Positions 24,181-56,849 of a stretch of 64,000 bases of DNA are shown in pieces. A program made the translations under genes and the position numbers. Origin of the DNA: Thuidium tamariscinum (taxonomy: Eukaryota; Streptophyta; Bryopsida; Hypnales; Thuidiaceae); NCBI GenBank assembly GCA_947034885.2, contig OX344752.2, positions 10,044,001-10,108,000 of the forward strand, written 5' to 3'. The first letter of the stretch is position 1; every line of letters starts with the position of its first letter. Under the pieces are notes generated by a model. The model searched no databases, was not told the DNA's origin, and saw only the letters and a program-made list of their open reading frames with translations.

Positions 24181-26428
24181 GAATTATGTTTGACATTACT
24201 TACAATTTTGATTGCAGTAGTTTTTGATGATTATTATATATAGCATCATACATACACAAAATTGTAGCCAAAGACATGTTTAATTATTACTATGCATTTT
24301 TTGGTTGTAAAAAGTACTTAATATTTATCCAATATGGATTTAATGAAAATTAAACAAATGTTTTTATCTACTAATATAGAAAAATATTATAGGGTTTGAA
24401 GGTGCCTAGGTGCTTGAATGTTGTTAAGTTTCCCAATTTTGAAAAAGACCACTTGTTTTATAGATGTGTTGGTTTTTTGATGTGTGGTTTGACAAGGCAA
24501 TAATTCCCACTTGTGTTCTGATTGTTAGCTACTTTTTATGAAGTGTATGACTTGGGAAGGTTTATGGCCACAAGATATTAAAGTAATCTTTCACAAAAGA
24601 AGTTGTAGATTTGGAGGTGTTAATTTAATCTGAAGTTCTTATTCAATGCCATATTAGCCATTACGCTAGATTCATAGTTGGAAAAGAATGATGATATAAA
24701 GTCATTATATGAAATATTTTTTGATTTGAAATATTCAAAACCTTTAAAAGTTTAATTAGAGATGAAATACTTGATAGCAATGAGACTCTTTATTTTTGAG
24801 AATTTTTTAAGAGTCATTTCATATTTAAATTTAAATTTTGCTAGTTTGTCACACTTTGCAATTTAGGTTTTTTATCACTTCTAAAGGAAATTTTAAAAAA
24901 CATTATTTTATTTCCTCTACATATGCACTAATAGGTCTCCATTGTGCATGATCTCTTAAACATTCAAGTTGATTTTTAAGATCATCTTTTTCATTAAATT
25001 CATAAAATCTCCTAAATTGAAATTTTTTAGTTTTCTTTATAATCCTTTTTCTTATTTTTTACAAACTAAAACGTCAAACAATCTATTTTCTTCAAAAACT
25101 ATATCACTCTATTTGGTGAATAATTTTTGACCTACAATTTTTTTAGGTCTCACATTTAATGATATGCTATTTTTAGTAGTATATTAATTATCTACATTTT
25201 ATCTTATGTTAAAAAAAAATTCTAAAAGGTTATAGTATAGCTAGTACTAAGCCAAATGCAAAAAAATCAAGTGGCATTAGGGGAGAATTGAAGGCAAGAG
25301 ATCTATTTCTAGGTTGTTCCCCTCCCTATTCTTTATGTTTACCAAAAACCATAAAATAGCCTATAATGATTGAATTTTTGAACTTTAAATTTTTTTGTTT
25401 AAAATTCTAAAAATTATTAAGAAATCTAAAAGTGGTTTACAATAAAAATATTTAAAATTACTATTTTTTAATGTGACAATCTCTCATCTATGTTAGATTG
25501 TTGATGTGGTGTGTTCCTACAATTTGGGAACTCAAAAAAACTCACAGTCTTTCTATGCCCTCAAATCTCCCCTAATGGGTTTTCTTGCAACAATCCACCT
25601 AAACGAACTCATAAATGTCAAAATAATATCACCTAAGACTCTCCACTAATCTACATTTTTCCTTCCATTGAGCTCCTTTGTAGGGGTTAAATAGGTCTTG
25701 GCATGTTGAGGTCTTGAGATACTTGATACATAAGGGCATACAATGTAAAAAACTTACAATCTTCGTATGCCCTTAGAACATTATAACGTTCAAAGTGAGA
25801 AGAAACAACTTTTTTTTACCTTGTCCGATAGGGACAACAATCTTTAACTCCTAGAATGAGATTTTCATACTATACATGGTTATTTTTTTTTACATTTGCA
25901 CCTTACATCACATTATATAAGTTATATATGTGCCAAATTTTAGAAATAATGAAGGAGTTTTGCAAAAGTTGCCCGAAGCTGCTCAAGCTCCTAATAAAGT
26001 TTAGGAAAACATATCTTTCAATTTGGACATCGGAAAAAAAAATAGATTTTCATAAAAGAGATACACATTTCTACATTGTATCCAAATTTCAAGAACATTT
26101 GACAAAAAATGACTCTGTAGGAATCTACCCAAATTTTTTTGGGTACATTGAATGGTCACTTGGTCCTTTAGGGATTAATGCCACAAATTTGGCACTTTGA
26201 AGCACAAAAATCTATCCAATAGGACTAAGCATGAAATGATGAAAGTGTAAGTCAAGGCCAAAGTTTAGCCTCTAGAAGCATAAATGGGAGCATGAGGGGT
26301 GCATGTTTACAACTGAGCTGCTTGGGCCTAGTTGCATTGGAACAAGAGACAAATGATCTATTTCAGATTTACACAATTCAACATTAACAATGACAAAACT
26401 AACAATGAGACCCTAAACAATTACTACA
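24181..26428. other. 3' flank of kinase A and AT-rich DNA
   Basis: The part to about 25735 is duplicated downstream of copy B. After that come old repeat fragments: a right end resembling the TTAA-flanked repeat (GGTCCTTTAGGGATTAA at 26164) and undefined AT-rich DNA. The 114-aa ORF at 25856-26200 has no recognisable domain and is probably chance. Confidence 0.5.
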
Positions 26429-34626: not shown

Positions 34627-34764
34627 GGTGAGTGGAATATCTTGGAAACAATGTCTGTAAGAGGCTATTCCTTTGCAAATTGGCTACATTTCCAATCTGG
34701 AACAATAAAATAATAGCCACCAAGAAAAATGGTATTCTATTGCACCTCACCAGTAAGTTAATCC

Positions 34765-34985
34765 CAACGACGCTAGCGTTCGAGCGTGGAGCGGTGAGCC
34801 TGTGAGCTGCGAGCGGGAAAGTTGTGAGCGGTGAGCATGAAGTAGCCTTTTTTTTAGAAATTTGGACTAGAATTTTTTTTCAATCATTTTTTTTTTCAAA
34901 AGTGACCAAAAAATTACTATTTATAGTAAATTTTTCTACCTATGACCGTGTCTCCTATAACCGTGGATTTTAATGAAATCTCATA
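34765..34985 (+). repeat. Left terminal inverted repeat of the MULE
   Basis: GC-rich tip with GAGC spaced every 6-12 bases (GAGCGTGGAGCGGTGAGC, CTGTGAGCTGCGAGCGGG), then an AT-rich stretch, then CCTATGACCGTG and CCTATAACCGTGGATTTTA. Reiterated short motifs at a transposon tip are candidate transposase binding sites. Confidence 0.82.
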
Positions 34986-35361
34986 TTTTTTAATCATTAA
35001 TAATAGCCTGTATACAAAAAAGTTTAGGGATTTAGGATTTTGGTCTTAATAAAAAATAGGCCAAACTCTTCAAATACAAAAGGCTCATGTGCCTTCTTTT
35101 AGGGTTTAGGACTTTTTGTGAGTGGATAAAATATAAATGGGCAACTTTAAAAACGAGATAGACAAAAAAAGTTAAGAATAATATATAATAAAATGAAAAT
35201 AGGAAACTTTAAAAACTGGATAGAAAAAGAAAGTTTTCATATACATGTATTGCAAAGAAAGTCAATGTTCGTGATTGGATACCATCACTTCTTCATTTCA
35301 TTTCTAGCGCATGGAGAAGAATACAATATGAATGTACAACACTCCAAAAACCTAATCATGT

Positions 35362-38300
35362 CTACTTTGAAATAATGATTATCCCTCCTCGAACTAGGAG
35401 TAGCTTCAACTCATTAAAGCTATAACTAGGTGCATGAATGAATTTGTCATCATGAATATCCATCTTGCAGAAGTACCTATACAAATAATACAAGTGCTTA
35501 CAATTCACGTATTGTGCTCGGCCTCCCACAGCAGATACTATCATATTGACAAAGTCAGGGCATGTGCATGTAGGGAATGTACCCATAGTAACTCGATATA
35601 CGTTTTGGTTGGACTCCACTCCAGTCTGTAGCACCACTATTGCACCAAGTCCAGGAAGGGGTACGAGGGTCACTCCTAGAATTTCCCCTTTGATATTTGA
35701 AGCACTTTCCCATTTGTTGCGTTGCTCTACGGTTGGAGGATTTGCAAGTCTTTTGATGGTTCGGTTGTTCCTCACTGTAGGGTGCACATCTGCATTTGGT
35801 GGACATGGTTGGGTGAAGAAGATAGGCTCAAAAATCTTAGACATGGCAAAAAGTTCACGTGCCGACAATGTAGGACGTTCTTGAAGACAAAAGCCTGCAT
35901 GCTGTAACAGTAAGGTTTCTTCACGATTCAAATTGGTCCCCGTTAGAACAGGCCAAAATTTAGGCAGCTCTGGCCTATCAATGACCCACTTCCTCTTTGT
36001 ACCTTTCACACATCGTTCAATGTCATCCCAACAAAACCAAAAATCCACAACCACTAGGCGCTTAGTTCCATACTCTTCTTTCCTACCACAATAAGTAGGA
36101 GCAGGGGTTCCTTTTCCACCCTTGGCAATCCTTAAGGTACACTTGATGTTTGATATTTGTTGTTGAACCCAGCATCGAGCATTTGATTTGTGGTTGATCC
36201 TTGCAATGTGCCACTTGGATGTGTCACAATCGGTTTCACATGCTACCGTCACATAATTGGAGGTATTGACTTCATTGCGATTTCCAATGCCTTCCATTGA
36301 ATGTTCTGCAACCTGGATAGATCTAGTTCGGACCCGCGGTTGCGAAAAGTTGACTTTGTCTGGTCTATGTGAATCTCCAGCATCACCGATAGGTACATCA
36401 AGCCTCCTCTTTGTGCTCCCAAAAATTTCTTCTCCTTCTAGATGAGGTACTCGAGTTCCCACACCATGTGCTTCTGGCAATGTATTCAATGCCTCAGCAA
36501 TTTTTTTTGGACATCCACTGCGCCTAGCGGCCCTCAACCTCAATTCTCCCTTTGATGGTCCTGATCCACATGCATGTCCTCTAAGGTATGCTCGGTAGTT
36601 TGTCATTTGCATCCAAGCCCGAATACTGTCATCACAAGTGGCGTCGAATAAATTGTTTCCTTTTTTCCCCGACATTTGTAGTCACTTGTTATGGATCGTT
36701 TCCGACAGATTACAAAAAGGCATGTCTGTCATCTCTTCTAAAGTAAGACCCTACAATTCCAACCACAGGCAGGCATGAATCAAAATACAATTCACTCTTA
36801 TTATACAAATGAAATCTGAAATTGCTCTCTATACTTCTAAGAATTTTAGTATGGTTTAGGGTTTAGGGAAGTACAATCACAAAGAAGAAACAAATAGTAT
36901 TATGGGTTTGTAGAATGCAAATATCTCACTTGAGAAAAAAAATTCGAAACATAGTAACAACTAGTGCTTCAATGGCAACTAATTTTGAACCTCCAAACAT
37001 TATATTTTTCTAAAACTAACTAGGGTTGGGAATCCGTCGGATCCGACGGATTCTATATATAATATCACTTTATAGTACAGTAAAAATACTAAATGATTGA
37101 AACTTCAAGCAATTACCATTTCCATAAATGCCTTATTGTAAGATTTATAAAAAATATACTTATAGCCGTTGCATGCAATAAGTGCCTCACTAACTCTCTA
37201 CCCTACGTCCTTCAATAAATCTTTCAAATTTTTACTATAAATTATCTTTAAAAAAATTGAAATGATTTGTATTAAAATTTTTAATTACAAAGACATTAAA
37301 AGTTAAAAGAATCATCTCTTCTATATAATTGAAGTAAACAATTGTCTTATTAAAAAAAATACAAAATATAATTTTTAAACCAAAATAAGATCCACATACC
37401 ATTGTCATGAAGCCTCCCCACTGTAAATAACGAAAATGCCAAAATGCTAACCAATGCTCATAGTGATGAAGTGAGTCTTCCGTTGTAGCTCCAAATGATA
37501 ACCACCATGACCGAATTGCAAGATAGTGCACCTCCGCTTCATCCAAAGTCTTGGATTCTTTGTATTGCTTACATAGTGCAATGTGTTGATGTTGTAATCC
37601 TTGCTTGATGTGTTTCTGGGTGTGCTTCTGAAGAGAATTACTCCAATGCAGTAGGCATGTTCTCTCACGATTCTTCATAATGTCATCTGCTGAACCACTA
37701 CCATAGACAATGCGAACTGCATTCTAATTGGTCATTGCGCTATCTGCCATTAATCCTTTAAAATTTGGCTTAGCCACTCCGTGTTTCTCCATTATAGCAT
37801 TCAATGACTTCCAGAATTGTACTTGAATCTCTGTATCTTCTGATTGCATATCGCACACTGCAATGGTCATGACCTTCTTGTACTGAGAGTCGTACACGTG
37901 GCATGCCATGGTGGTCCAGTCCTTCACGCGCTTCACGTGGTCGAACATCATCCACGCATTCTGTAGATCACCGTCAGGTTGCATGCGCCTTACCAAGTCC
38001 ACTCCACTTCCAGGCCCTTCAGTGAGCATTTTGAAGATGTAAACCTTCTCTTTGCCTTGGCCTGGAAAGACACTATCGTGTATGAACTCGAACTTTGATT
38101 CCTTCTTCATGGTCATGATGTTGTCAATGACCCCTCCTTGGTTGTTTGAGCGGAATGAGGAGATGATATTCCGTATACTAGGACTACTTAGAAATTGAAA
38201 GCGATCCATGACCTCTTCCATTTCCTCTCCCTTCAATATCTTCTTCTCTCCTTCTCCGCGGTGAAAAAGGTGGTTTGTAAGGAAGTCTTTGCTAGCAGAT

Positions 38301-39568
38301 AAGGCTATGGCAGAGTTTGTAGCGGAAGGGGTTTTGGCAACTTGTTCTGCTATGAGTTCGGTAATCTCTTTTGCAGAATCTCTATACATGCCTTTTGCTA
38401 CCGGGTGAGAGTGGTTTCCTAGGTGAATAGCAGCCCTAGTCACATTTGAGTTATCACTATAGCAGTAGTAAATTCTAGCATCACAAGTGCTAAGACATGT
38501 AGGAACTGTTTTGCAGACTTTACAAACTAGTTTGCAATCAATTGGTGGAGCAACTCCTACTGCAAAAGGAAAAACTGTGGAACCTGTCCATTCTGTTTCA
38601 TTTTTCCTAGAAGTCCTAGACAAGTACTCGCAACTAGGGTTTTCATAAATAAGATGGCCAACGCAAGAAGACTTACGGAACTTCAGATTGTCCATGTTGT
38701 GGATATTTGTTGTCACTAGCTTGCACCACCCGTGTCCATCGTACCGCTTGTCCATTCCCTCCAAGTTCTTTGTGGCAGATGAAGAAGAAGAGGCCCGACA
38801 AGGCGGAAGTTCAAAGATGGCATCTCCATTGTAAGTAGGTGGTAGATACTCTACTCGTTGGTGCATCATTGCATTCATATCTAATGTTGACAGTTCATTT
38901 CTTGAACGGTGAAGACCAAAAAGTCCCTTCAAGCATTTCATAATACTTATTGTATTGGCCAAACTAGGATGACAAACTTGTTTTGAGAAGGTACAATGTT
39001 CAGAACTACTAGTGGAGGTGTTCTATACAAAGTAGGGTAGTTTTGTGTCATTGGACTCTTTTTTAACAAAGGAAGGTTCCATATCAAGAGTCAAGGAAGG
39101 GGACTGGCCTTCTGACTCACTAGACAGTTCTACAATAGTCCCTAACAACTCTACCTTTACTTTAGCAGACATTTCATTCTGTGCAAATGTAGGAAAACAT
39201 CCTATAGGAGTAGTAGGATTTCCACTCTTAGGTCCAGAAGGTCTATTCACTGTAGAGTTATCAGATTGGCGACTTGTTATCTCAGTGGACGAAGCTAGTA
39301 TAGATAAAGGGAGACCGTAAGCCTTGTAGTTCCCTAGACCTAAATACCAACAATATCCTTGGCTGGAGAGACATTTTGGAAGCGGGATTGATTGAAGTAA
39401 TTCCCCAGACTCAGAACGGCGCTCTTCCTCAACGTAGATAGATGACTCTACAAATTTGAATCGAACATGAAGCAAGTGGCTAAATACAGTAGCACGACCT
39501 TCTAGGTCTAAAGGAAACACTAAAGGAACCTCATTACCATCTACGCGAATACTTGCCATGTCGCTCAT
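35362..39568 (-). pseudogene. MULE transposase gene (SWIM zinc finger), three in-frame stops
   Basis: Two exons on the minus strand: 39568-37400 (donor ATG|GTATGTGG) and 36750-35362 (acceptor TTGTAG|GG), in phase, about 1,185 codons. The order is: an unassigned N-terminal region; a Cys/His zinc-binding module resembling WRKY-GCM1/FLYWCH fingers (CKVCKTVPTC to HLGNHSHPV, about 38540-38400); a DDE-type transposase core (DWTTMACHVYD near 37905, NFKGLMADSAMTN near 37745); a basic linker; and a C-terminal SWIM finger CTCPDF...NCKHLYYL (about 35570-35480). In-frame stops are TAG at 39025-39023, TAG at 37726-37724 (directly after MTN) and TGA at 36684-36682 (after IHNK). The last two sit where related proteins, as I recall them, have Trp. 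I found no frameshift. The third catalytic residue is not assigned. The start ATG at 39568 is the first Met of the open frame. Confidence 0.85.
37031..37052. repeat. Perfect palindrome on GTCGGATCCGAC (intron of transposase gene)
   Basis: A 22-bp perfect palindrome with core CCGTCGGATCCGACGG, in the intron between the two transposase exons. The same core recurs at 43117, 43566, 44075, 48184 and 50390. Confidence 0.92.
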
Positions 39569-40376
39569 AGTCAAATGTAAAATAGAAATGCGGATAGAAA
39601 TGGCTTGAGAGAGTGAAATAAGAAATGGGCAGATTCATATAGGGTTCTCATAGGCGCATTGATTACTTGTGAATGATGGTGGCCCGAAAAATACAGGAAG
39701 TTTGAATTAGCACTAATATCTATAAAATAGAAGGGCTGTTAAGGCATTGAGCTAAGCAATTACTTCAATGACGACCGTCACATTAGAATTAGTGAATACT
39801 AAGTAAATTGTACAGTCCCATATTATCTTTACTACGGCGTAGTTAATTGTAGCACCAGTACTTCTGCATGTAGTAATTAGGTTGTCAATTATAGAATTTT
39901 CTTTTATTTATAGTACTCTCTAATCCTAGATATTCTGTCAATAGATCTGGGGCTTACGAAATGATTATAATCTTGGCGGCTCTCTTCAAACGGCTCCATC
40001 AAATCTCATTAAATGTACGAATCTGTACAACTACTGACATTGGCGGCGCTGTCTCGTGGAGTTGCGTTGGGCAGTGCCAATATCAAATTCTAAGAATTGC
40101 CGGCGCCGAAATAGTAAAGTTTTGACACGCGTGAAGTGCAAAGGCGGTGTAGTATGGAAAATCATATAGGGGACTCTTGGGAAAGATGGATTCATTTCAA
40201 ACCCATCTTTGGAGTGGAGCTCCCATTTGTATGTAGAGCAGAGGTAGGTGTAGTTCTATATGCTCATGATTTTAGAGCAATCTAGTTCATTTTCTGTCCT
40301 TCTAGAGCGAAGCAAGAGTCATAGGAAACATAGCTCTTTCTTCTTTTCTTCTAGGAAAGCTTTAAAGAGAGCCAAG
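39569..40376. promoter_or_regulatory. Divergent promoter region of the MULE
   Basis: About 800 bp between the transposase start (minus strand) and the first plus-strand exon. Moderate GC, with GGCGGC/GGCGCC patches near 40043 and 40100. No clear TATA box could be chosen. Placement alone suggests shared control of transposase and accessory genes. Confidence 0.5.
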
Positions 40377-40571
40377 ATGACTCGTGCGAAGAAAACACTG
40401 TCAAAGAGAGGTCGTGCTATTCCAAGTGAGTCACGGAAGTCTCTCAGTCTCGAGAGAGAGGGAGGCAACCAATTCACGAGTGTTGGAGGCCAAAATGAGG
40501 ATCCTATGCAGGAGTATCCAAACGAGACGCAGGATGAGGATGAAGTCACGGAGTCGCAAGAAACATGTAAC
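40377..40571 (+). CDS. Possible first exon of the small MULE accessory gene
   Basis: ATG at 40377 opens 65 codons (MTRAKKTLSKRGRAI..., then an acidic stretch QDEDEVTESQE) ending at a good donor, AAC|GTAAGT, in phase 0. The acceptor at 44207 is also phase 0, so this exon could join PAAKDTS directly, as an alternative to the exon at 41916. The basic start followed by an acidic stretch resembles that other exon only loosely. Confidence 0.5.
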
Positions 40572-41344
40572 GTAAGTCCATTGTACGCAACTTTTTAGTC
40601 ATTTATTTCATTGCAGTTAGAGTTGTAAACACAGAAAAGATTTAGTGGGTTCAGGGTTTAGGGTAGTCACCAAAGTGGTAAATGAAGGTAGTCACATAGG
40701 AGCCATGCTGATGCATGGTGTACTCTATTAGCTTTGAATATTCTACACTATGATTGAATGCCAACTTCCAGGGCAACACATAAATAGTGCCTAGAATAAA
40801 AATTAGAAAGCAGTAAGACTAACAAATTATGATCTTCATGAGTTTTGAGTTTTCATTGTTGCTTTGTGAGAGGCTTGAAATTCAAGTACTAATCACTTTT
40901 TTAGCAAACAACGTTACACTGTCTTAAGAGAGAAATAGCTTAATACTATTTCACAATCATTGAGAGATTTTGCTCTCTACATATACCAGAGAGTGTAAAC
41001 TATTTGTATTCCTATTTCAAAATTAGGCTAGAAGATTTGGAATTTTCAGTGAGGTGTTACAAATGCACCAAAAATAAAAAGGTCTGCCTAAACACTAAAA
41101 TCCTTGGTTCTGATTTCAAGCTCCTTGTTTATTTTTCACTTTCTCGTCCATAGATTTAAAAAAGCTCTAACTGCTATTGAAAATGTACATAGTTGAAGTT
41201 GAAAAAAATCAAGAGTTTGATATTCAAAACAAAAGTTATCTCATCAGGTCCTGAACCCAAATTCAAGCATTTGCTAATTGAATATATTCTGTAGAAAAGT
41301 CAAATTCCACAGGACAACTTGTCCAAGTGTTCTTGTCTCACCTG

Positions 41345-41915
41345 CCGAGTTAAATTGAGTCATTCAAAATTAGAATGAATCCGGGAATCAGCCAAAATTC
41401 CAGCCTGCACTTGTCTGGAATCGAATATCAGTATTTAATTCTAGCCAGGGAGAGCGTAAGTCACGGCACTGTGACTCGGCTAGTTGCCGACTCCACCTGA
41501 ATTCTTGCGCATCCTGAATTCTTGCGCGTCCAAGTACATTCCTTGGCTGCAGATTCGGTTGGTAAAAAGGACTCCTGCCTACCACCGAATCACCAAAGTC
41601 AACGCGCAGTGAGTTGCCAAATGACACGGCTCCAAATCTGATCAAGTAGCCAACTTTTTGTGAAGACGCGAGAATTCTTGCAACCATGGGATCAATATGG
41701 CATCCCGGGAACTCCTGGCCGCCACAGCATCGACGGATCTTCAAAGTTACTTTTGGATGGCTCGGCGCTGCAACATTTGAAGTTCTAGACTGAGCTCACT
41801 CACTTCTCAAGCCTCCCATTCTCGAACTCACTTCTGTGTCATTAGTCTTAAGCTGCGGCAAAGTAAGACAATTGTTTTTTTCAGATTTTTGAGACCTCTT
41901 GCAAGCTTGGTGCAG
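41345..41915. promoter_or_regulatory. Candidate second promoter, GC-shifted segment
   Basis: The composition is richer in GC than the DNA before it and holds a short tandem copy (CTGAATTCTTGCGC twice, 41507-41535). It lies just upstream of the exon at 41916. It may be the promoter of that exon or captured host DNA. No motif settles this. Confidence 0.35.
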
Positions 41916-44900
41916 ATGGCGAGGACCACGAGGAGCAAGGCGCGAATTTCAGAGGATCCAGATGGACATGAGGCGCAACGTGAGGTAACATCTCTGACTT
42001 CACCTTTTGCATTTGTCTTGGGCTCTCATAACTGCTCTTGACACGCATCGTACTACTTTGTGCGTGACTCCTGGACTCCGCGCGCTGCACCTCCTCCCCT
42101 CGAGTGCCCACCCGGGAACTATCGCGCGCTGCACCTCCTCTCCTCAGGCGCCCACCCGGGAACTGTCGTGTGCTGCACTTGGGATCTCCCCACGCGCGCT
42201 GCACCTCCTGCCCTCGGGCGCCCACCCGGGAACTGTCGCGTGCTGCACTCGGGAACTCCCGCGCTTCGCCCGCTAACTCCACGCGCTGCACCCCCTCCCC
42301 TCGGGCGTTGCACCCGGGAACTCCCACGTGCCGCCCGCTAACTCCACGCGCGCGTTGCACCACCTCCCCTCGGGCGCCCACCCGGGATCTGACACGAGGT
42401 GCACTGAGAACTCCCCGCGCGCGTTGCATCTCCTGCCCACGGGCGCCCACCCGGGAACTGTCGCACGCTGCACCCCCTCCCCTCGAGCGTTGCACCCGGG
42501 AACTCCCACGCGCCGCCCGCTAACTCCACGCGCGCGTTGCACCACCTCCCCTCGGGCGCCCACCCGAGATCTGACACGAGGTGCACCGAGAACTCCCCGC
42601 GCGCGTTGCATCTCCTGCCCACGGGCGCCCACCCGGGAACTGTCGCACGCTGCACCCCCTCCCCTCGGGCGCTGCACCCGGGAACTCCCGTGCGCCGCAT
42701 TCGCTAACTCCACGCGCGCGTTGCACCTCCTTCCCTCGGGTTCCCACCCGGGAACTCCCCGCGCGTGCGGCACATCCTCCCTTCAGACGCTGCACCCAGG
42801 AACTCCCCGCGCGTGCGGCACATCCTTCCTTCGGACACTACACCCGGGAACTCCCCGCGCGTGCGGCACATCCTTTCTTCGGGCGCTGCACCCAGGAACT
42901 CCCCGCGCGCCGCATCCACTCTCCCCACGCACTGCACCCTGGAGTTCTCCGCGCCCTGCACCCACTCTGCCCGCGTGCTGCACCCTGGAATTTCCCGCGC
43001 GCTACACCCTGGAATTCCCCGCGTGCCGCACCCGCTCTTCCCGCGCGTTTATTTAAATCTTTGCGTGAGTGCTCCAGAACTCGGGTAGCACAAGGCATTC
43101 GCGGAAATCAAGTCGGATCCGACTTGGTTTTCCGTTTTGCCTCGTACTACCCGAGAAAATGCTTCAAAATCAACATCAGGGGTACTGAAGGAGGGTTTCT
43201 TTATCTTTGCTCCATCTGCTCTGAAGTCTTGAGCCTCGGCGTTTCCGAATTCGTGAGTGAGTTAGACAGCTTTGTGTCTGTGATTTCTAAATCTACACTG
43301 AAAGTAGTTCGACCTCAGTTCATGCGGCTCTCTATTTTCTGGGCTGCTTTTTTGAATTTGAGAGAGTCTATCGGAGTTCCGTAGTAGCGTGACGCAATTG
43401 AGAATTTCCCATTGGGTCCGGCTTCATTTTCTGACACATCTCGTGGTACGCTTGAATCTGCAATGTTTTAATAACGAAAGTCTGATGATGATTGAATTCA
43501 GTTTCTCGAAGAAAAAAAATGGCGCACCGTGGGTACCACGAGGCGCGTCGAAAAACCAAGTCGGATCTGACTTGATTTCGCGGTGCGCCTCGTGGTACCC
43601 ACGGCACGCCCTTATTATTTTCCGTGACGTGAGATTTGTCGGTACTAGATCTAATTCAGTTTTGTTTTTTTAAAGTCACTGTTCACTGTCGGTGTGACGG
43701 AATGAAGACTGCAGCTCCGCTCACCTCCGAGTAAGGTCGAACTAGTATTCTTTAAGTCAGTTGGTTGTGTACAGATTGACGGAATCATTCATTTTTGAAA
43801 ATTGTTTTTGGGACTCGGTTTACATTTAAAGCTCCTGTATTTGATTTCGAAGCTCTTAAAATTATCTTCTTTAGTTCACAGTACTTGCATTGGAGTCTCT
43901 CAATATTTGATGAAGACCTTGGTTTTCCACTCTGAGCTCTGAAGAGATAGCATTTCATAGAATATATATGAATTTCCAAGCTTTTATTCGGTTCTCAAGA
44001 GAATTTGTGGATATTTCCAAAAAAACAGTGGAAACTTTGGATACTACGAGGTGATTTGGAAAACCAAGTTGGATCCGACTTGGTTTTCCAAGTCACCTCG
44101 TAGTACCCAAAGTTTTCACTGTTATATAAACTTTGATTATGTTTTATTTATTTAGATAATATTTATTTGATTATTTTTGGACTTACATAATTCATTTTTG
44201 GTTCAGCCCGCTGCTAAAGATACGAGTGTTGCAAAGGACAATGAAGGATTGAAGAAACAGGTATACTAAGCATGACCCTTCATAACCCTGAAGTCAATTG
44301 TGTCTTATTTATAATGATTCCAAATAAGTGGACTCTTATGGAAAGATTTAAAGTGTCAAATCTATTCACTTTGAATTTGAAAAGATCTTGGGCATTTTGG
44401 TTAAGCCTTTGTTTCAGTTACTTAGAATCATGAACCCTCAATGAATGTTAAAAATAATTCTTTGTTGTCCAGGACGGCCGAGGGCAGGGCAAACGCCAGA
44501 AGGTTTTATCTTCAGAGGAAGGGAGTCCTGTGAAGCAGACTGTCCCTGATATGGACGTTGGTGGACCATCCAAGCCCCAGATGTGGCCACAGCCAGGGGT
44601 GTCCATTTCACTTGACCAAAGTGATGCAAACCAAAATTTGGTGAGTTTTGATGACGTCATGGATGTTGCAGAGCGAGCCGTTGATGCGTTCGAAACTACT
44701 GTGCTTAGTGGGACTAGGGGCAATGGCCCGTGGTTCTCGTCTTTCAGTGAGGAGGAGGAGTATCCCTCTGATTATGAGCCCTCCAACTCCAGCAGTGTAG
44801 AGTTTTTTGATTTGTACACAGGGGAGAGTGAGGTGTCAAATATGGACCTATTTCAGTAAGATGAAATCATCATCCTCAGCTCTGATGAGGATGAGGATGA

Positions 44901-44922
44901 GGATGTTCAAATCATAGACTAG
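41916..44922 (+). CDS. Small MULE accessory protein, basic N-terminus and acidic SIM-like tail
   Basis: Exons 41916-41984 (MARTTRSKARIS...), 44207-44260 (PAAKDTSVAKDNEG...) and 44473-44922, all phase 0, about 190 codons. Exon 3 reads GQGKRQKVLSSEEGSP (possible nuclear localisation), a Pro-rich part, FDDVMDVAERAVDAFE (helical) and an acidic part. A TAA at 44857-44859 interrupts the frame, which continues as DEIIILSSDEDEDEDVQIID to TAG at 44920. EIIILSSDEDED looks like a SUMO-interacting motif (hydrophobic run followed by Ser/acidic residues). Alternatively CA|GTAAGA at the TAA is a splice donor. No enzyme domain is visible. Its position between transposase and methyltransferase-like genes suggests an element-specific regulator; that is inference. 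Confidence 0.55.
42060..43045. repeat. GC-rich minisatellite, about 1 kb, in the intron after 41984
   Basis: Tandem repeats built from GCGCGCTGCACCTCC, CCCTCGGGCGCCCACCC and GGGAACT modules, with a basic period near 55-65 bp. A higher-order unit of about 190 bp occurs twice, near 42355-42545 and 42545-42735. GC content is far above the rest of the window. Overlapping ORFs exist in all frames on both strands because of the repeat; none looks real. Confidence 0.92.
43080..43155. repeat. Palindrome P1 (MULE family)
   Basis: A 76-bp imperfect palindrome. The tips are CTCGGGTAG / CTACCCGAG and the centre is AAGTCGGATCCGACTT, with CGGAAA / TTTTCCG between. Confidence 0.9.
43521..43610. repeat. Palindrome P2 (MULE family)
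   Basis: A 90-bp palindrome with tips CGTGGGTACCACGAGGCGC / GCGCCTCGTGGTACCCACG and centre AAGTCGGATCTGACTT. One base breaks the perfect centre. Confidence 0.92.
44024..44123. repeat. Palindrome P3 (MULE family)
   Basis: A 100-bp palindrome with outer arms AACAGTG / CACTGTT, then TACTACGAGGTG / CACCTCGTAGTA, and centre GGAAAACCAAGTTGGATCC / GACTTGGTTTTCC. It lies 84 bp before the acceptor of the next exon. Confidence 0.92.
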
Positions 44923-47900
44923 GTGGAGTTTTGTCCTCAAAAACACTATATACCAGGCCAGGCTTTATCTTTATTCAAACTACATCATTTTTGTAGATGT
45001 ATTTGACAATCCAGTTGCAAGTACTATATTCCACTTGAAGTAAACTATTTTTCTATTCATTGATCCATCACTTTGGTCATGCATTTCATATTTTTTTTGT
45101 CTACTGTAAACCTTCCATTTATTAATCTTGAACTTTGTTCTTCTAGATGGACATCTCCCCCGCCAAAACCACAGAAGCAAAAACAATATTTGAAACGCCA
45201 TCCTCTCAAAACCAGAGACAGCCAGAGATCGAACAAGGAGAAGGAGATGGAGATGAAGGAGAGGAGGACATCGAGATTGTCATTCAAGACCGTGAGGAAG
45301 AGAAGGTGATGTCAGAGGAAGAACTCCGGCATATTCAAAAAGGTGATGTTGTGAAGCTTTTGGCACAACTTCGGATGAAGCCCGAGGAGTTATTTCGAAT
45401 GCACATACCATTGTGCAGGCTTGTGGCAATGCCAATGGTCAGACCCGCATTGGCATCTGATATCCTATAGCTAGAGCAAGAGTTTGCAGGTGGAGGGTAC
45501 CGAGATGGTGCTGCGGTATTCTATGTCTCAGCTACAAACGAAGATGGAAACACTGAAGAGTTCACCCAACAGGAGATGGATAGTTGGGACCCCATTTGGA
45601 AGGAGAAGAATGAAGTCTTCAAACAGAAGTTCGAGTCCAAGCCAGAGCTTCAGTTCTTGAAGAACTTAAAGATCTTCATTTGCGATGGGAACCACAAACG
45701 AATTGCGTGGATGAACTACATCTCTAAGCACTCAAAGGAGCACTACAGTGTCGATTCTATCATGTTAGACACGAAAGGTCGGAATGAACTTGTCATGCAA
45801 GTCATGCATGACGTAAACAAGTAAGTTCCTTCTTTCTTATTGTTTTTATTTTTCAAAAAAATATTCAATTTGAATAATGTATTTTCTTGGAGGTAGTTTA
45901 GATATTTGGCTTATATCGCATTGAATGGTTTTTAGGTCTATAGAAGACTCCCACGTGAAGACGAACTTGGTACACACCTTGTACCAAATTCAAAAGTACG
46001 GGATGCTACCCATAGCAAAGTTTGCAGCCTTACTTAGGCCTGCAGAGAGGAAGAGGTGCCTTGAGAACAAGGTTACTAAGAAATGGTATTCAATTCAACC
46101 CGAGGTCTTCACATCTTTCATCTTCCGGGTAAGCTCCTTCAAATTGTTTTTGATAAATATATTTTTATTTTAAGAAATCATCATTGTCCATATTGACTTC
46201 ACATCCAATTGGGTTTTTTTTGCAGCAAGAAATTTCACAAGCTGTAGATGCAGCAGTAAGAAGGTACATGGAGGCCACACAAGAGACTGGAAGTGTACCA
46301 CTACTGGCAGCCGAAGCAATGAGGTTGGGAGCAAGGGAACGAACAAAGGCAACCATGGTGAAGATGTTCAAATTGCTAGCGGTGGCCAACCCAACAAACG
46401 GAGAGGACTTCCTTAAAGAGGTACAATTCAGTAATTTATCTCCAACTTTACTTAAATTGTTCAAAAGACAGTTCAAATCCATATTGGAAAACTAACTGAA
46501 GTCTTCTTATAGGTGGAAAAGCATTGGGGCAATTACGAGGTGCCTGAAATGACTTTGGAGAAGCTCCAGTTGGTCGCCACCTGCAAGATGACTGCAAAGC
46601 ACAAGACAAAGATACTTCAATGGTGGAACTCTTCTATCCTAAATCGCGAATCAAGGAAGTTGCCACCAAAACCTGTCTCTGAACTCTTACTTCCTCAATT
46701 TCTGGTGAAGTGCACTTGGGACGCTGGGATAAGTGTTCAATATCTAATTCCTTTCATTGAATAATAAAACACGTGGTAGTTGTTTTCATTTAAATATTTG
46801 ATGATACAACTAAACTTTTTGACCATATCCCATTTTTCAGATAGAAGATGCTGCAGTGGAGTTCTTCGACAAAATTGTAAAGGAAGACAACCTTTCCATC
46901 GATTACAACGTAAAACTGGAACCAGAGTGGCTACCAGAGTACATAGAAGGATGGAGGCAGAAGATTTGGGAACATGGCTTCATGAATTACTTCAAGGGCT
47001 CGAAGTACTTCAAGAGGGGCCAAACTTTTGCATCTCACGAAGGCTCTAACGCTGTGGTGCGCAGAGTCCTTTATCGGTATGTCATTTTCTGTACTACTTG
47101 GAATTTTGTGGCATCATTGTATACTTTGTAATTAAAGAAACCCTATAGCATCTTCTACTTCATTATAAATCTTAAATTTGTATTGTCTTGGATACTTTTT
47201 CACCCTTGAAAGGATTTTAATTTACAACTTCTATGTTATATTTCGCTCTTATTCTTTCATTTTTAAGTTGAACAGTGCTCCATATAACTCATTATAATTG
47301 AATTACAGGTACTTCAAGTTAGAGCTTGAAGCAAAGGGGGCCATTGCAAAACTGGACCTCCCTCAATTCCTTCCACGCTTCCTCGACCGCAACTCGACTT
47401 CATGCATGTTCAGCCCACATCAATTGCGTACCTACACTACTGCTCATCTCTCTGGCGCGGGTTGGTACTTGGACTGCACATTGGAGTTCACCCATAATTT
47501 GGAGGTTCAGCTCAGGGCATCATTGGAGGGCAAGGGGGTAGTAGATTTGGAGGATGTTGACGAGTTCATCGGCATGGATGATGATGCCAGGAAGAGGGCC
47601 ATCAACAAGAGGGATGCACTGGACCGAAAGAAAGAAGTGAAGAATCAACTCATCGTGGAGGCCAAGGAGAAAAAGCAGGCGGAGAAAGAAGCCGAGAAGG
47701 AGAAGGAAGAGAAGACTAAGGCCAAGGGAAAGAAGAAAGTGGAAGAGAAAGGGCAAGTCTTAGCTTCCTCCACTGTGGATCAAACACAAGGTGGAGTACC
47801 AAGGAAAGTCACCATCTCACAGCTCACTGAAGATGTCATTTCACGAGTGACACAAGCCATGGTCCTTTCTGACGATGATGTGCCACAGACTGAGGATTTA

Positions 47901-48173
47901 ATCCTTAATATTTGCATTGAGGACATCGCCATGGATATGGAGGACAAAAGACAGGGTGCCTACGACGAGGTCTTGAAGTACTTGGTTCAGGTGATCTCTT
48001 CAAACATCTTTGCTCAAATTTATTTTACTTGTTGTCAATGATATGAATGCTAAGCACCAAAGTTGCTATAATGAAACATTGAAGAAAATTTTCTCTCTGC
48101 TCCACAATTATATTTTGTATTGAAGAATTTTTGTATTTGAAAGAATTGGTAAGACAACAAGGCAAAATTTACA

Positions 48174-48195
48174 ATTCCGTCAGATCCGACGGAAT
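48174..48195. repeat. Palindrome with CCGTCAGATCCGACGG core
   Basis: A 22-bp palindrome with a single mismatch, in intron 6 of the large accessory gene. It shares neighbouring ACAA..AAGGCAA sequence with the copy at 50381. Confidence 0.88.
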
Positions 48196-49306
48196 CACCT
48201 AAACCACTATTTTTTTTGTTTTTTTCCTACTCAACATTACCTACTTTCATATGCTTTTGTTTTCTCTAGAAGTTGTTGAACATTTTGACAAATGAAATTT
48301 CTCTTTTAGCTCAGACTTTTATTAAAATGATCCTAAAATTCCTAATGTTGTATTAAATATTATGAATCTGCTTTGAAAGATAGGAAAGTATGCAATACTT
48401 ATATATTGCAATTCTATTGAAATGTGCTTTTGCAGATGGCAGTGGGCAAAACTCGCATGTTTGAAGGTGTCGCAAATTCAAGGGCTGGTGTTGATGTCAT
48501 CTTCATTGACTGTCCAGAGAACTTGCCTGTGCCAGGCATTTCTCTTACGCCGAAGGAGGTGCCAAATTGGAATACGGATTTAGAAGCTAATGCTTTGCAA
48601 TCCGCATGCACCTTTGCAGTAGAGCATCTACACGATGATGGATGCATCATTGTGTTTCACTCCTTCAGCATTGCATCCAGGGAAGATCTAGCAGGAGTTT
48701 GTGAAGCATTTGACTTCAAGAAGAAGAAGGACTGGCTAGGCATGAACCGCATGCATCTCACCTCGCCAACGGACACTACAAAGACGGTAATTTCAGTACA
48801 GATGCTTCAGTTTTGTAACCTATTTTCTTTTAAAATTCTATTCATTGATCTCTAATGTTCTTGTGTCATATATGTTGCAGACACAGAAGTTTGGAGTCAC
48901 TCTCCTTGTCAAGGACCTCAAAGCAAAAGGTGAATCCAAATTTGCTTTCAAGCGTACTGAGATGATGAAGAAGGCTGGGGTGGATGTCGAGAATGATGAC
49001 AAGTTGATGAATTACATGCATGCAGATGACATCTCCATGAATGGGAAGAAGCCATAGAGAGGCCCACGTGAAAAAGATCCGAGGTTCTTCACCCTCCTCC
49101 TTGAAGCCACAAGCAATGAAGGCGATGTCATTGTGGACTGCACGGCATCCACAAGTTTGTCTTCAGTTTGAATATTTCACACTTCTATGTCATTGTAACA
49201 ATTTTGTCACCTCTCTAACACATTTTTTTTACATGAATGCCCTAGGTGCTTGCATTTTGGCTTGTAGAGGAACTGGCCGCAACATTCTAGCTTTTGAGGG
49301 GGACAA

Positions 49307-49649
49307 CATAAGAGGATTTCTGGGCCCCCAAGAGACCGTTTCAGGGGTGTTCCCCGAAATTGTTCCCACTGCTGCAGACCAGCACCCTGCTGGTCTGAAT
49401 TTTTGAATTTTGAAAAAAAAAAATTAATTTTTTTTTTTTCAAAAAACTTCAGAATGCATTAAATAGAAAAAAAATGATTCAAAAAAATATTTTAAAAATA
49501 TTTAATATTTAATTAAAATTAATAAAAAAATATTTTTTTCCGACGTGGCAGTCGCTCGACCACATCAGCATCGCGTTCCCAGCGTTCCCAATGCGTTCCC
49601 AGCGTCTGGGAACTCGCAGTCTCTTACAGGAGCTAAAAATCCTCTTATG
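49307..49649. mobile_element. MITE/foldback (CATAAGAGG ends) inserted in an accessory-gene exon
   Basis: 343 bp with ends CATAAGAGGATTT and AAATCCTCTTATG, and inner arms CAAGAGAC / GTCTCTTA and a poly-A/T core. A relative in the opposite orientation lies at 61938-62221 (shared GGGAACTCGCAGTCTC and TCATAAGAGG sequences). Removing it joins FEGD to DVFNAILK, continuing the methyltransferase-like frame, so it interrupts an exon right after the SAM-binding motif. Confidence 0.85.
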
Positions 49650-50148
49650 AGATGTTTTCAATGCCATTTTGAAGCCCATGAAGAAGTCATCACCCTCAAT
49701 GGCAGTGGCTCCAACCCCCGAGGCAACAGTGGACTTGACAATGGATGTGCAAGACGCGCCTATTGTGCCTCGCAAGTTTGTTCGCAAGGGAAAATCCAGT
49801 AAGTAAGTGGAAACTTCTTTCATTCTTTATTATTTTTCTTCATATCACATTTGCAAAGACTAATATAATGTCTTCAATTTTTGCAAAGGTTGTGGATTGA
49901 TCTTGAGAGAGGTCATGGAACAAAATCAAAGGCTTGTCATTAGTCCAGAGAAGCCTTTCGAGCTACCACCCTATGCTGAGCAGATGGCAAGTGCCTTTGC
50001 AAATTTTGGTTGTTCCAAATCAAAACGACGCAAAGACACTTACGCCCTCAATGTCTTACAGTTTATAGATGCTTCTGCATCTGAGGGACGGGAGTCCTCA
50101 GAGTCCTCTACAGGGTCAGATTCAGTGACTGAGTCCACAGCCACTTAG

Positions 50149-50819
50149 ATTCTTGAGATTGACTAATCTCTTGAATCTTACTATTGTGTATTATTTAGAT
50201 TTTATTTGGATTGGATTTGTGTGTTTTATGGCTACTTCTGGAAGTCTCAAATTTCTCTTTCTATATATTTGATTTTTGTTTTGAAAACATCTAAGGCAAT
50301 GGCTCTTGCTAGTTCTTCCAAAACCTACACCAAAAATAAATAAATAAATAAATTTTGAGGCAAGAAGGCAACACGTACAATTTCGTCGGATCCGACAAAC
50401 CCTTACGTATTGACCATCCAATTCTTTCTCTTCATTATACATCTCAAAATCAATCTTCTTTCAAAAACACCTAGATTGACTTATTTAGTGAATGAGTTGC
50501 ATCAAATTAGAGTATTTCCAATGCCTTCTGTGATTTCAAGGTTTGGGTATTTATGAGATGTTCTTTGCTGTTTTCATTTTGCCTTCACATTCCTTAATTT
50601 ATCTCTATATAAAAAAGATTTAATATACCCATTAAAGCTAATCGACAATATAAACCTAAGTGCTCTGATTCTCACAATTATATTTTATATCCCTACTCTT
50701 GTGTATATAATGTCCATGATCTTAGGTGTATGCAAAGAGAAAATGAAGAAGAAAACAAAAAGTGACTTCTGTAGTCCCATCTTTGAAATAGACATCATAT
50801 CTTCTTCGTCGCCTAAACG
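50149..50819. other. MULE 3' non-coding region
   Basis: AT-rich DNA between the last accessory exon and the right terminal repeat, with TAAATAAATAAATAAA at 50336 and the palindrome at 50381. No gene seen. Confidence 0.5.
50381..50399. repeat. Palindrome TTCGTCGGATCCGACAA
   Basis: The last member of the GTCGGATCCGAC family, 235 bp downstream of the accessory-gene stop and inside the MULE. Confidence 0.85.
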
Positions 50820-50970
50820 TTGAAAGTCCACGAGTATAGGTACTAAACTCTAATTTTGGTTACCCTAAAATCCACGATCATAGGTGGTCAATTCAAAATT
50901 TTTTCAAAATAAATTTCCCGCTCACAGGCTCACAGGCTCCTGCTCCCCCGCTCACCTGCTAGCAACCCTG
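50820..50970 (-). repeat. Right terminal inverted repeat of the MULE
   Basis: Reverse complement of the left end: CCACGATCATAGG and an AT-rich stretch, then CCCGCTCACAGGCTCACAGGC, CCGCTCACCTGCTAGC. The CTCACAGG unit is tandemly repeated. The outer 13 bases match the left tip at 9 positions. Confidence 0.82.
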
Positions 50971-50984
50971 AGCTAATCCTTAAC

Positions 50985-53059: not shown

Positions 53060-54506
53060 AATTCTCGTTCAGATTATATCGATCCTTCCGTCCTTCTCCC
53101 TACACCACTTGGTCTTTCTGTTTGTACGCCACGCCGCTTCCATTGGGATTCGGATTGGGATTGCGCAGATTGAGCAAGAGCGAGGGTCTTGCAGACACAA
53201 AACCGAGTTCAATTTGTGGGCAATCTGGAAGTGCATCCAGTTTCAGGCACCGATTGACTCATGATCCCAATTTTGTTAATTTGGATGCACGAAGCTGCCT
53301 AGCTCCAGGGGTGCGTTCGAAAGCTGTCGATTTCGTGGAGAAGCGGCTGGTTTCTTTGGCCTCTTTGCGAAATTTCCGGTGAGTTTTTCAATTTGAACGT
53401 TGGCAGCGAGTGTTGTGCTTGGGAGAGTGGCATCGTATCATGCTTGGGAGTGATGGGAGTTAGTTTCCCTTTTCCCTTTCTCCTTCAGCGTAACTAAACT
53501 GATTTTCTTCTCGTTGTTTCTGTCTGTACGCCTTGCTGCTAGGGCTTCAGGCTTGGTCTTCACATCGCGCAGAGTCTCGCCGCCGCACAAGGGTTTGTGA
53601 GCCATTTGGAAGGCCAGTGGCTGTCACTGATTCATGATCCCAGTTTCATTCAGGTGCTCGGCTCTAGCTCCTGGGATTCGTTCAAAAGCTTTGGTTGGTG
53701 CAGAGGCTGCATTTTGTGGCAATTTGCGGGATTAATTGGTGGTGAATCAGGATTTAATTTGTGCTTGGGAGCATGTGTTGCATGCAAACAAGTGATGAGA
53801 GTTTGCTTTGTCATCTTCTCCCCATTTCCTTGCAGTCCTCTCAAAAGAGCTTTACTTGGCACGTGCAGCATTTTTTGTTTCCTTTTTCTGTGAGCTTGTG
53901 TACCATTTGATCTACTTCCAATACTGTACTATATTGCAATTCTTTTTGGTGTCCATTTGGTAGCATTTCTTGTACTATACAGAATAAGTGGCCAATTTCG
54001 TTAAAATGGTGGTATTCCAAATGCCATTTTTCAGACCGCGTAGTCTGAACTAAAAATTGATATCTAAGACAAGTATAGATTTTCAGACATCTATGGCATA
54101 TATAGATTTCCAAATCTATGACAGATTTAAATTTCAGATCACGTGGTCTAAAACATCTTGGACAAGTATGGATTTTAGAAATCTACAACACATATAGATT
54201 TCAAAAATCTATGACAGATGTGGATTTCAGACCGCGCGATTTGAACTATCAAAAGTGTCAAATTAATGGAATACCGCCATTTTAACGAAATTCGCCATAT
54301 AATCTTCTAAGCTCAACTTCAATCAATTGCCATTGTGGACCTCAATTGTTGTGGTTAGCCCACCAAGTTCAAATCCATACTCCTGACCATCATGTTTGTG
54401 AAGTGGTTTCTTGTGAAGCACATCTAATTATTGTGCATTTTTTTGTTACAGGAAGCCTTCCAATTGACAAGGGCCTTGAAGCCTAGTGATCTTGAAGAGA
54501 GCATCC
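53060..54506 (+). promoter_or_regulatory. Promoter/leader of kinase B with two repeated units and a MITE
   Basis: Two units (near 53075 and 53500) carry the same TGATCCCA.TTT landmark and donor-like GTGAGTT (53378) or GTGAATC (53737) as copy A, which has three. TTTTTTGTTACAG at 54439-54451 is a good acceptor 55 bases before the ATG, supporting a 5' UTR intron in this family. A MITE at 53989 interrupts the interval. Confidence 0.5.
53989..54297. mobile_element. MITE (TGGCCAATTTCGTTAAAATGG ends) in the kinase B leader
   Basis: 309 bp; the right end is CCATTTTAACGAAATTCGCCA. The inside repeats CAGACCGCGTAGTCTGAAC-like and ATAGATTTCAAAAATCTATG-like small palindromes. Copy A passes from GTCCATTT to TCTAAGTTGAGCTT without it, an empty site. 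The target duplication is unclear. Confidence 0.87.
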
Positions 54507-55853
54507 ATGGCTAATGAGTCCAACCTACATGCAGCCCCAATCTCTACAGAGTTTCACTCAATGCATATTGAGAGCATGAAGGCAACCTTAGAAACGTTGG
54601 GTGTGAATGATGAGTATGCAAAGCGGAAGGTGGAGATTGAATTATCCAAAGTGCATTGGAGTGAGGTGGCAAGTACATACTATACAGCTATGGAAGGTCC
54701 AACCTTGGACTCATCTTCCATCTTATTGCCAAAGTGGGTTCATGAAGAAGGGACACCAGAGTGGAAGTTGGAGGTTGCTGAAGACAACAAGCATGTGTTT
54801 CGAAGTCTTCAGGAGAAATTACCCGGGGGATTTTTCATTGATGAAAATGATCTAGGACCCAATTCTACTCAACAATTGCCTAGGTGGATGATTGATGATA
54901 ATGGTGTTCCTTTTCCATGGGAGTTTGGATTGAGTTGTGTGACTCCATTTGCAAAGGGAGGCCAAGCAGAACTCTTTCATGCTCACATGATAGATATGAA
55001 TGATGGTGAGAAATTTGAAGATTTTGTTATGAAGGTATTTAAGGAGGAGATGCCATTGAGAGACCTTCTCAAATTCTTTCCCATTACCATGTTTTCTAAT
55101 GATAAAACATGCATTGAGGGCATATTTGGAAGAGAATTCAATAATTTGAATGTTATAGCTGGTGCACGATTGTTGAAGTCCACTAGAAGATTTGCATTCT
55201 TTATGGCGAGAGCTTGGGGGGACTTGCGGAAGTTGATCGATAAAAGAATGTTACATTTCAACAATCAAGGCCCACCATTTCCAAATGATATAGCTTTTTA
55301 TATCATACATTGAATTGGCAAGGGTATGATGGAATTGCATGAAAGAGGTGTCATTCATCGAGATTTCAAAGCTGCCAATGTATTAGTATTTGGGACATAT
55401 GATAGAGAGAAAAGGTTTTATTCTATAGTTGACCCAATGCACTTGCAACCACACCAATTTTTTTGCGTAGTAGCAGACTTTGAATGCTCCATTGGAATTG
55501 TGGGGACGGGATTTTGGAGGGCCCCTGAAATATTAGAAGCTATGAAGAAGCGGAATATTTCCCAAAAGCCGGAATTGTTCACCAAACAAGTAGATGTCTA
55601 TAGTTTTGGAATGACTTGCTACGAGATCTTATCAGGTAAAATGCCTTTTGAAGAACTAAGAAGAAATGACTATGATAGGGTCATTGGTGGTGCAAGGCCC
55701 AAGTTGCCTAGCCAAATTCCACCTTGGATGGTGGATTTGATAAATAGGTGTTGGCACCAAAATCCTTCAATGAGGCCACCATTTGAAGAAATTGTTGGGA
55801 TCCTTGAAGCTTATGTTCCACAAGAAGTAGAAAGTGAAGAGGAAGATTTGTAG
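54507..55853 (+). pseudogene. Kinase paralogue of 22831-24180 with an in-frame stop (TGA, codon 269)
   Basis: Aligns end to end with kinase A. Start ATG 54507 (MANESNLHAAPI). Codon 269 (55311-55313) is TGA where kinase A has CAA (Gln in YFIHQIAKG), a two-base difference. The frame then runs open to 55853 with no frameshift. Without readthrough the product is 268 aa and lacks the catalytic loop. Downstream, HRDLKAANV has become HRDFKAANV; VADFECS and GTGFWRAPEIL are kept. The last third (from 55495) is far more similar to kinase A than the first third. Candidate outcomes are pseudogene, truncated N-terminal protein, or a sequence error at one codon. Confidence 0.85.
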
Positions 55854-56849
55854 GAATTATTTTTGGCATTACTTGCAATAGTTGTTGATGATTATTATAT
55901 ATAGCATTATATATACACAAAATTGTAGAAAGACATGTTTAATTCTTCCTGTGGATTTTTTGGTTGTAGAAAGTATTTATTATTTTATTTACCTAATTTT
56001 GGATTTAATGAAAATTAAATAAATATTTTATCTAATAATTTTAAAAAAATCTTATAGAATTTGAAGGTGCTTAGGTGGTTGAATGTTGTTAAGTTTCCCA
56101 ATCTTGAAAAAGACCACTTGTTTTATGGATGTGTTGTTTTTTTGATGTGTGGTTTGACAGGGCAAAATTTTTAACTTGTGTTATGATTGCTAACTACTTT
56201 TTATGAAATGTGTGATTTGGGAAGATTTATGGTCACAAGATATTAAAGTAATCTTTCACAAAAGCAATTGTGGATTTAGAGGTGTTAATTTAATCTAAAG
56301 TTCTTATTCAATGCCATATTAGCCACAGTTGGAACTGAGTGATGATATGAAGTCATTATATGAAACATTTTTTTGATTTGAAATATTAAAGACCTTAAGA
56401 TCATTTCCAAATTCATTCAAATGAACCCTTTAAGGACTCGTCGACCACTTTTTGGTTGATTTTTGCACTCTCTGTCTAATATTGTTCAAAATATATTCGA
56501 TCACAAAAATCTCAAAGTGTATTGCAATCAAAGTGTCTTCATGCACTTCAAACAAAATCAACTTCAAGAGAATTGGAGCATTGATGCATTAGATATGAGG
56601 TTGCAAACTCAAATGGCCTAGACCCTAAAATGGGTAATGTTCAACAAAAATACAAAAAAATATCAAAAAACTTGTGAGATTTTTTTGTATCTTGATGTCT
56701 TCACAAGGCTTAAGTGTTGATTTGTGATCTCATGAATGCCTAAAGTAAACTTATGCATTGAAATTTATGTGGCGCAAATTCTAAAGGATTATTCAAGTCA
56801 TTGATTTTTGAGGATTAAAGGAAACAACTCAAATTCCAACAAGGCTCTA

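Follow-up and report, generated by a model that had tools for sequence, protein, structure and literature searches.

The window analysed here, a 64,000-nucleotide stretch of the Thuidium tamariscinum genome, contains one bounded transposon copy of 16,206 bp (34765-50970). We compared it with ten of its closest genomic copies and their flanks, nine of them full-length at 15.4-16.6 kb and one of 7.4 kb, and homology to the ten copies stops at these two positions. The ends carry imperfect terminal inverted repeats of about 60 bp, the left one aligning to the reversed right one (34765-34824, + strand; 50911-50970, - strand), and are flanked by a target-site duplication, AGTTAATCC on the left (34756-34764) and AGCTAATCC on the right (50971-50979), in which 8 of 9 bases agree. 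All ten other copies possess a perfect 10-bp target-site duplication, as does one copy from a second subfamily (the 72% group); no target duplication was found for the third-subfamily copy, whose left end was not recognised. In the searched genome, a 363-Mb assembly of 19 contigs, the outermost 22 bp on the left are matched at 169 places when one mismatch is allowed, compared to 0 for the control.

Mutator-like elements (MULEs) have target duplications of about 8-11 bp, and the 10-bp duplication and ~60-bp inverted repeats found here fit such an element. Its transposase gene (35362-39634, - strand) consists of two long exons, the second of which has a SWIM-like CxC..CxH motif; in the window it is interrupted by in-frame stops at 39023-39025 and 37724-37726, and in another copy (c1b) it is open over 744 and 462 amino acids. 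The SWIM zinc finger profile PF04434 matched the transposase below cut-off (E 0.024-0.26), and no Pfam MULE transposase domain was matched at E up to 1, nor with the limit set to 10, at which HMMER filters remove most matches above 0.1. Between the transposase and the accessory gene described below, frames conserved among the copies point to a putative gene for a small, acidic-tailed protein, which we call gene B (within 40371-44922, + strand). One of its exons reads MTRAKKTLSKRGRA, and another frame reads MARTTRSKAR, which faintly resembles a histone H3 tail. Inside the element, GC-rich (~70%) tandem repeats occupy window positions 42000-43050, a place at which other copies seem to carry different repetitive sequence.

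Divergently from the transposase runs a 10-exon accessory gene (45147-50149, + strand), with exons at 45147-45820, 45936-46128, 46226-46420, 46513-46704, 46841-47076, 47309-47990, 48436-48786, 48881-49154, 49246 to about 49798 (including an insert) and 49889-50149, the donor of exon 9 having been assigned by hand. The GT-AG splice sites are retained in 10/10 other copies, and the spliced frame is open in two of these (c2a and c11, which encode a product of 1,102 amino acids), contains one stop in six and three stops in one, and is frameshifted in one. In the window the gene is broken by in-frame TAG codons at 45468-45470 and 49055-49057 and by a 343-bp insert within exon 9. The insert (49307-49649) is MITE-like, its ends being CATAAGAGG..CCTCTTATG; it lacks a clear target duplication and is absent from 10/10 other copies. 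A preliminary description of this DNA had reported a methyltransferase-like gene at 48436-49798; the coding sequence is real, and it makes up only the C-terminal part of the gene that begins at 45147. The peptides which that description quoted are all encoded on the + strand: exon 48436-48786 contains VDVIFIDCPEN and LHDDGCIIVFHSF, exon 48881-49154 contains GDVIVDCTAS, and CRGTGRNILAFEGD belongs to the exon starting at 49246.

Genomic distribution and linkage to the transposase

The accessory gene belongs to a large family. Exon 48436-48786 has at least 150 matches in the genome (619 candidates, of which 150 were scored), and these 150 comprise 82 at 85-100% identity and 68 at 62-80%, most of them stop-free. 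Contig C11, which at 17.5 Mb represents about 5% of the genome, carries 47 of the 150 scored matches and is perhaps a sex chromosome or an otherwise repeat-rich one. On contig C6, four near-identical pairs of element places lie between 24.96 and 25.65 Mb at a spacing of about 0.2 Mb, which suggests a segmental duplication or an assembly artefact; these pairs look like segmental copies and are not independent in our counts.

Among the 150 methyltransferase-exon matches listed, 94 are accompanied by a transposase that lies 5-25 kb upstream and faces the other way, and for 117 the N-terminal exon is found upstream at 1.5-9 kb, on the strand of the match itself. Each of the three other gene arrangements was seen once. 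Random positions gave a mean of 1.4 and a maximum of 5 in 200 draws, a control in which the lengths of contigs C3 and C8 were approximated. Starting from the transposase, we found the accessory gene next to 102 of the 150 matches listed, and a diverged form of the N-terminal exon adjoins 26 of the remaining 48 in a comparison that used 96 of 150 listed entries; in total, 128/150 listed transposase matches are accompanied by the accessory gene, and for 22 no partner was found. The partnership is present in all three subfamilies read. These numbers, together with the bounded copies, bear out the preliminary description's placement of the gene on a transposon with its own transposase, and they run contrary to the case, raised there against this placement, of homologues that are never linked to transposases. 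The transposon was there called a MULE, an assignment that we regard as tentative.

The two halves of the accessory protein

The C-terminal half (48436-49798, + strand) contains an amino-methyltransferase-like domain and a tail. Taken alone, exon 48436-48786 gave no Pfam match at E up to 1. By contrast with this single exon, the spliced domain of copy c2a matched the N6_N4_Mtase profile PF01555 with 20.6 bits (E 4.7e-4), its residues 62-234 aligning to positions 40-218 of 221, which upholds the earlier claim of amino-methyltransferase homology with the catalytic motif first and the SAM motif last. Domains from diverged copies scored 27.0 bits (L052, E 5.1e-6, over positions 165-218), 26.0 bits (L054) and 15.7 bits (L039), so that one of four spliced natural domains, that of L052, passes the gathering threshold of 26.7 bits; L052 also has a Pfam match to DUF4747 at E 0.18. 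In PHROGs, c2a matched seven methyltransferase families (best 3.7e-6) and L052 six together with one family of unknown function (best 1.4e-7), most of these matches spanning the SAM-motif half only, and NCBIfam CcrM matched at 0.0055. Phage records matched the C-terminus in 520 cases at E up to 10 (best E about 1e-3), and the best 20 of these 520 comprise 18 annotated methylases and two proteins without annotation. In the PDB, the two best of six matches were the adenine methyltransferases 5hfj and 5hek; at a whole-sequence E of 0.03 they are weak, but they are colinear in both halves (19-95 and 182-237). The other four look like chance matches.

Amino-methyltransferases have a catalytic motif of the form (D/N/S)PP(Y/F/W) and a SAM motif of the form DPFxGxG. 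In place of the former (motif IV), the copies read from subfamilies 1 and 2 have DCPE (in one case YCPE), and L052 and L054, from the most distant subfamily read, have DCQE; L053 reads DYQE and contains a stop. The fourth position is E in 7/7 rows of one alignment (A1) and 5/5 rows of another (A3). At the DNA level, the pattern encoding DCPENxPVP occurs at 97 exact genomic places with varied synonymous codons, compared to 0 for the control. The altered catalytic motif, noted in the preliminary description as DCPE, recurs in the copies read, mostly as DC[PQ]E, but it is not the only alteration: the SAM motif (motif I), which reads DCTASTG in other copies, has its first glycine replaced in 5/5 rows of A3 and retains its second in 4/5. 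Since motif I is altered as well, binding of SAM, which had been put forward as a possibility, now appears less likely. Judged from these motifs, the C-terminal domain is probably a pseudo-methyltransferase that lacks catalysis.

It is distinctly unlikely, in our estimation, that the protein instead methylates DNA and places 6mA or 4mC on the element, either actively through its unusual DC[PQ]E site or in dependence on a second subunit that supplies catalysis. Homology to such enzymes spans nearly the whole domain, the GGATCC core of the palindromic sites described below includes GATC, and inactive subunits can serve active complexes, as METTL14 with its EPPL motif does with METTL3 in the available text of one report (PMC5023411). 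Against this stand the glutamate fixed at the fourth position of motif IV and the missing first glycine of motif I. A genome search with PF01555, which could also have revealed a host paralogue with an intact motif, detected nothing further above cut-off and yielded 43 sub-threshold matches (best E 0.54); it was a single-exon search that also missed the known copies and so could have passed over a partner.

Selection on both halves of the probable pseudo-methyltransferase protein was estimated from dN/dS. In the C-terminal domain the ratio is 0.11-0.17 in four between-subfamily pairs, and the altered motifs therefore appear to be maintained rather than merely decaying. In the N-terminal exon, nine pairs were compared, of which four were saturated, four unsaturated between-group pairs gave 0.04-0.08 (rough values, as some dS are near 2-3) and one close pair gave 0.36. 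Other close copy pairs gave 0.38-0.57, and such values of 0.36-0.57 are as expected of copies that decay after insertion. MULEs tend to acquire host gene fragments, according to the part of the literature available on this point (PMC6446971), and the window copy is broken, both of which would suit a captured bacterial or host gene fragment that is passively copied and functionless. Given the purifying selection between subfamilies, the splice sites kept in all ten other copies and the partnership with the transposase in three subfamilies, we consider such passive capture extremely improbable; it is largely refuted by dN/dS and linkage.

The N-terminal half contains a domain (45297-45820, + strand, with the first of the window's two TAG codons inside it) that is ParB/Srx-like by motif only. 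Its CDGNHR motif is invariant in 7/7 rows of the N-terminal alignment (A2), and L047, which was left out of A2, has CDENHR. We take this motif to resemble the DGxHR of ParB/Srx-like domains. Over the same segment, two of seven A2 rows matched Pfam DUF1015 (best E 0.0046), a family placed near ParB. The ParB profile PF02195 itself is absent among the Pfam matches of seven N-terminal members, and a genome-wide search with it, run at E up to 10, produced 0 candidates, with 11 of 14 control genomes positive. A single-sequence fold model of the N-terminal exon had a mean pLDDT of 39 and was uninformative. No sequence relative of the N-terminal half was found in phages, plasmids, or viral or prokaryotic contigs, nor did alignments A1 and A2 have relatives in viral contigs. 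The N-terminal half may perhaps be ParB/Srx-like, which we treat as an unproven hypothesis.

Several further matches were set aside. Two phage matches of the N-terminus at E 6 and 8 were taken as chance, as were the only PDB matches of A2, to KMP-11 (E 0.29 and 0.4), and the Pfam matches of element proteins to WHIM1, SBF_like, 2HCT and UBA_HYPK, all at E 0.06 or worse. Pfam KMP11, CENP-P and DUF5898 each matched one of seven A2 rows at E 0.069-0.54.

Palindromic sites in the element

The element is enriched in a palindromic 12-mer. Exact GTCGGATCCGAC occurs 55 times outside the coding exons of 11 related element copies (164,580 bp) and 0 times in 107,720 bp of their flanking DNA, and genome-wide it occurs 655 times compared to once for a reversed-pattern control. 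Fifty of the 655 sites were placed, all on contig C1, and 50/50 have an element gene match no more than 16 kb away, compared to 1.9% of random C1 positions. In the window, sites of this type are located between the two transposase exons (GTCGGATCCGAC, 37036-37047), in the central block, in accessory intron 6 (GTCAGATCCGAC, 48179-48190, where 8/10 other copies have exact GTCGGATCCGAC) and immediately 3' of the accessory gene (GTCGGATCCGAC, 50385-50396). Those of the central block are two 78-bp composite dyads, one centred on GTCGGATCCGAC (43079-43156) and the other on GTTGGATCCGAC (44035-44112). Sites are spaced from a few hundred bp to kilobases apart, with no same-orientation tandem arrays.

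When counted by centre, there are 59 distinct sites (one of them probably a chance occurrence), and 32 of these have at least 7/9 complementary positions in an outer box that lies at a fixed distance from the centre and extends the palindrome to a 78-bp dyad. The outer box is mostly GGGTACC/GGTACCC and in subfamily 3 GGGGTCC/GGACCCC. The middle arms of the dyad vary in sequence; across the 32 sites they pair at 11.7/15 positions with their own partner versus 6.7/15 with the arms of other sites, and one copy has a perfect palindrome of 86 bp. The site type is also shared by subfamilies that cannot be aligned in their central noncoding DNA: between copy c7a and the second-subfamily copy (S2), the block from 4741 to 9368 has no BLAST alignment, yet both have sites there. 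The site between the transposase exons recurs in both other subfamilies read, at S2 2635 and at S3 2272, where it is half-degenerate. The third-subfamily copy (S3) has no exact 12-mer but has CGTCGGATCCG[TC]CGG forms, and L053 carries CTCGGATCCGAG twice. As L053 is the only one of 17 pieces of diverged copies (L038-L054, 0.8-2.6 kb) to contain the site type, the position and number of sites vary.

Could the dyads act as RNA hairpins, that is, as intron structures or small-RNA precursors of which the 12-mer is merely the tip? Both long window dyads fold, with z -12.4 for the one at 44035-44112 and -7.1 for the other, and their arms stay self-complementary even as their sequence varies. However, the three other window sites reach only z -3.3, -1.5 and -1.8, and in subfamily-1 copies the sites at about 2.2, 13 and 15 kb keep the central palindrome while their middle arms pair at only 3-9 of 15 positions. 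We hold this explanation to be very unlikely.

The sites may, on the other hand, serve the transposase, for synapsis or as regulatory sites, with the accessory protein having an unrelated structural role. DNA binding is a property of transposases, and the central block as well as the gap between the two transposase exons contains sites; they are nevertheless internal, far from the terminal inverted repeats, and also found inside the accessory gene and beyond its end. In the copy of 7.4 kb, on contig C2, which has a perfect target duplication like the others, nearly all of the transposase is lost, but the accessory gene persists (with a single stop), as do three sites, of which two differ at one base; in either case this copy may depend on a transposase supplied in trans. 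On balance we regard a role of the sites for the transposase, independent of the accessory protein, as unlikely.

A proposed self-recognition role

Together, the methyltransferase-like protein and the element-enriched palindromic site suggest a self-recognition system, and the sites make such a role more plausible than the preliminary description, which had raised self-marking, could know. Our preferred reading, which we consider plausible yet still tentative, is that the accessory protein binds GTCGGATCCGAC-type sites and marks or protects its elements without methylating them. In this proposal the C-terminal half would be of bacterial-type N6/N4 amino-methyltransferase origin and now be non-catalytic and DNA-engaging, and the N-terminal half, probably a ParB/Srx-like domain, would perhaps be the site-binding part. 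The protein would act with the GTCGGATCCGAC-core sites that are spread over the intergenic regions and introns of the transposon encoding it, and the dyad symmetry of these sites suggests that it would bind them as a dimer or oligomer. Once bound, it would mark or coat its own element copies, and copies so marked would continue to be transcribed and to move, much as VANC acts on VANDAL elements. We infer that the sites are bound by the accessory protein and not by the transposase or by the product of gene B; the anti-silencing outcome would follow by analogy. We also entertain, as a doubtful possibility, a eukaryotic transposon-encoded system resembling a centromere or parS, in which a protein combining ParB-like and pseudo-methyltransferase parts would nucleate on the 78-bp dyads, spread over or bridge copies and thereby protect or self-mark the element, protein and sites having co-evolved into the specificities GTCGGATCCGAC, CTCGGATCCGAG and CGTCGGATCCG[TC]CGG.

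To our knowledge, there are few eukaryotic DNA transposons whose self-recognition is understood at a detailed molecular level; VANC is an example. Phage and plasmid proteins that join ParB to an adenine methylase exist, and the present protein may likewise combine a DGxHR domain and an amino-methyltransferase; as a difference, no sequence relative of its N-terminal half was found in phages, plasmids, or viral or prokaryotic contigs. The VANC motifs of Arabidopsis VANDAL elements, which are Mutator-like, are situated in introns and in upstream DNA of the element that encodes VANC (PMC5735166). As far as the accessible text of that report describes it, VANC is also an accessory protein, and the element it comes from has a transposase, too; its motif is enriched in the noncoding DNA of that element, introns included, and target motifs differ between families. 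In contrast to the palindromes and 78-bp dyads reported here, the VANC21 motif is given there as a 9-mer in same-orientation tandem arrays, and the present protein, as compared by Pfam only, has a methyltransferase-like domain that sets it apart from VANC.

Degenerate methyltransferase domains have precedents too. The excerpts available for DIRS1 retroposons (PMC3537659, PMC3266345) describe a catalytically inactive N6-adenine methylase, and thus a transposable element whose N6-adenine methylase-like domain is degenerate and unknown in function, as in our case; DIRS1 is, however, a retroelement with a tyrosine recombinase, and those excerpts describe no family of cis sites. METTL14 similarly is an amino-methyltransferase fold whose degenerate EPPL motif is kept for a non-catalytic role, but in the part of the report available (PMC5023411) its substrate is RNA and it works in a cellular heterodimer. 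Fungal DNA transposons with TET/JBP genes and oomycete Harbinger and MuDR families with SET genes, as portions of PMC12730594 recount, are further DNA transposons that carry enzymes of chromatin or DNA modification, of classes that differ from the one found here. Anti-silencing by accessory proteins and the carriage of DNA modifiers by transposons are known phenomena, and no description of the present combination of features was found in the literature searched, whose coverage was partial. If the proposal is true, an amino-methyltransferase would here have been converted by nature into a module for DNA recognition within a cut-and-paste transposon. With at least 150 genomic matches in several subfamilies, binding, specificity switching and effects on silencing are directly testable.

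Outside the element, the window contains a duplicated region (22830-24634 and 54506-56299) whose two parts lie about 31.67 kb apart and are 80-92% identical in ungapped pieces; one of its frames is protein kinase-like.
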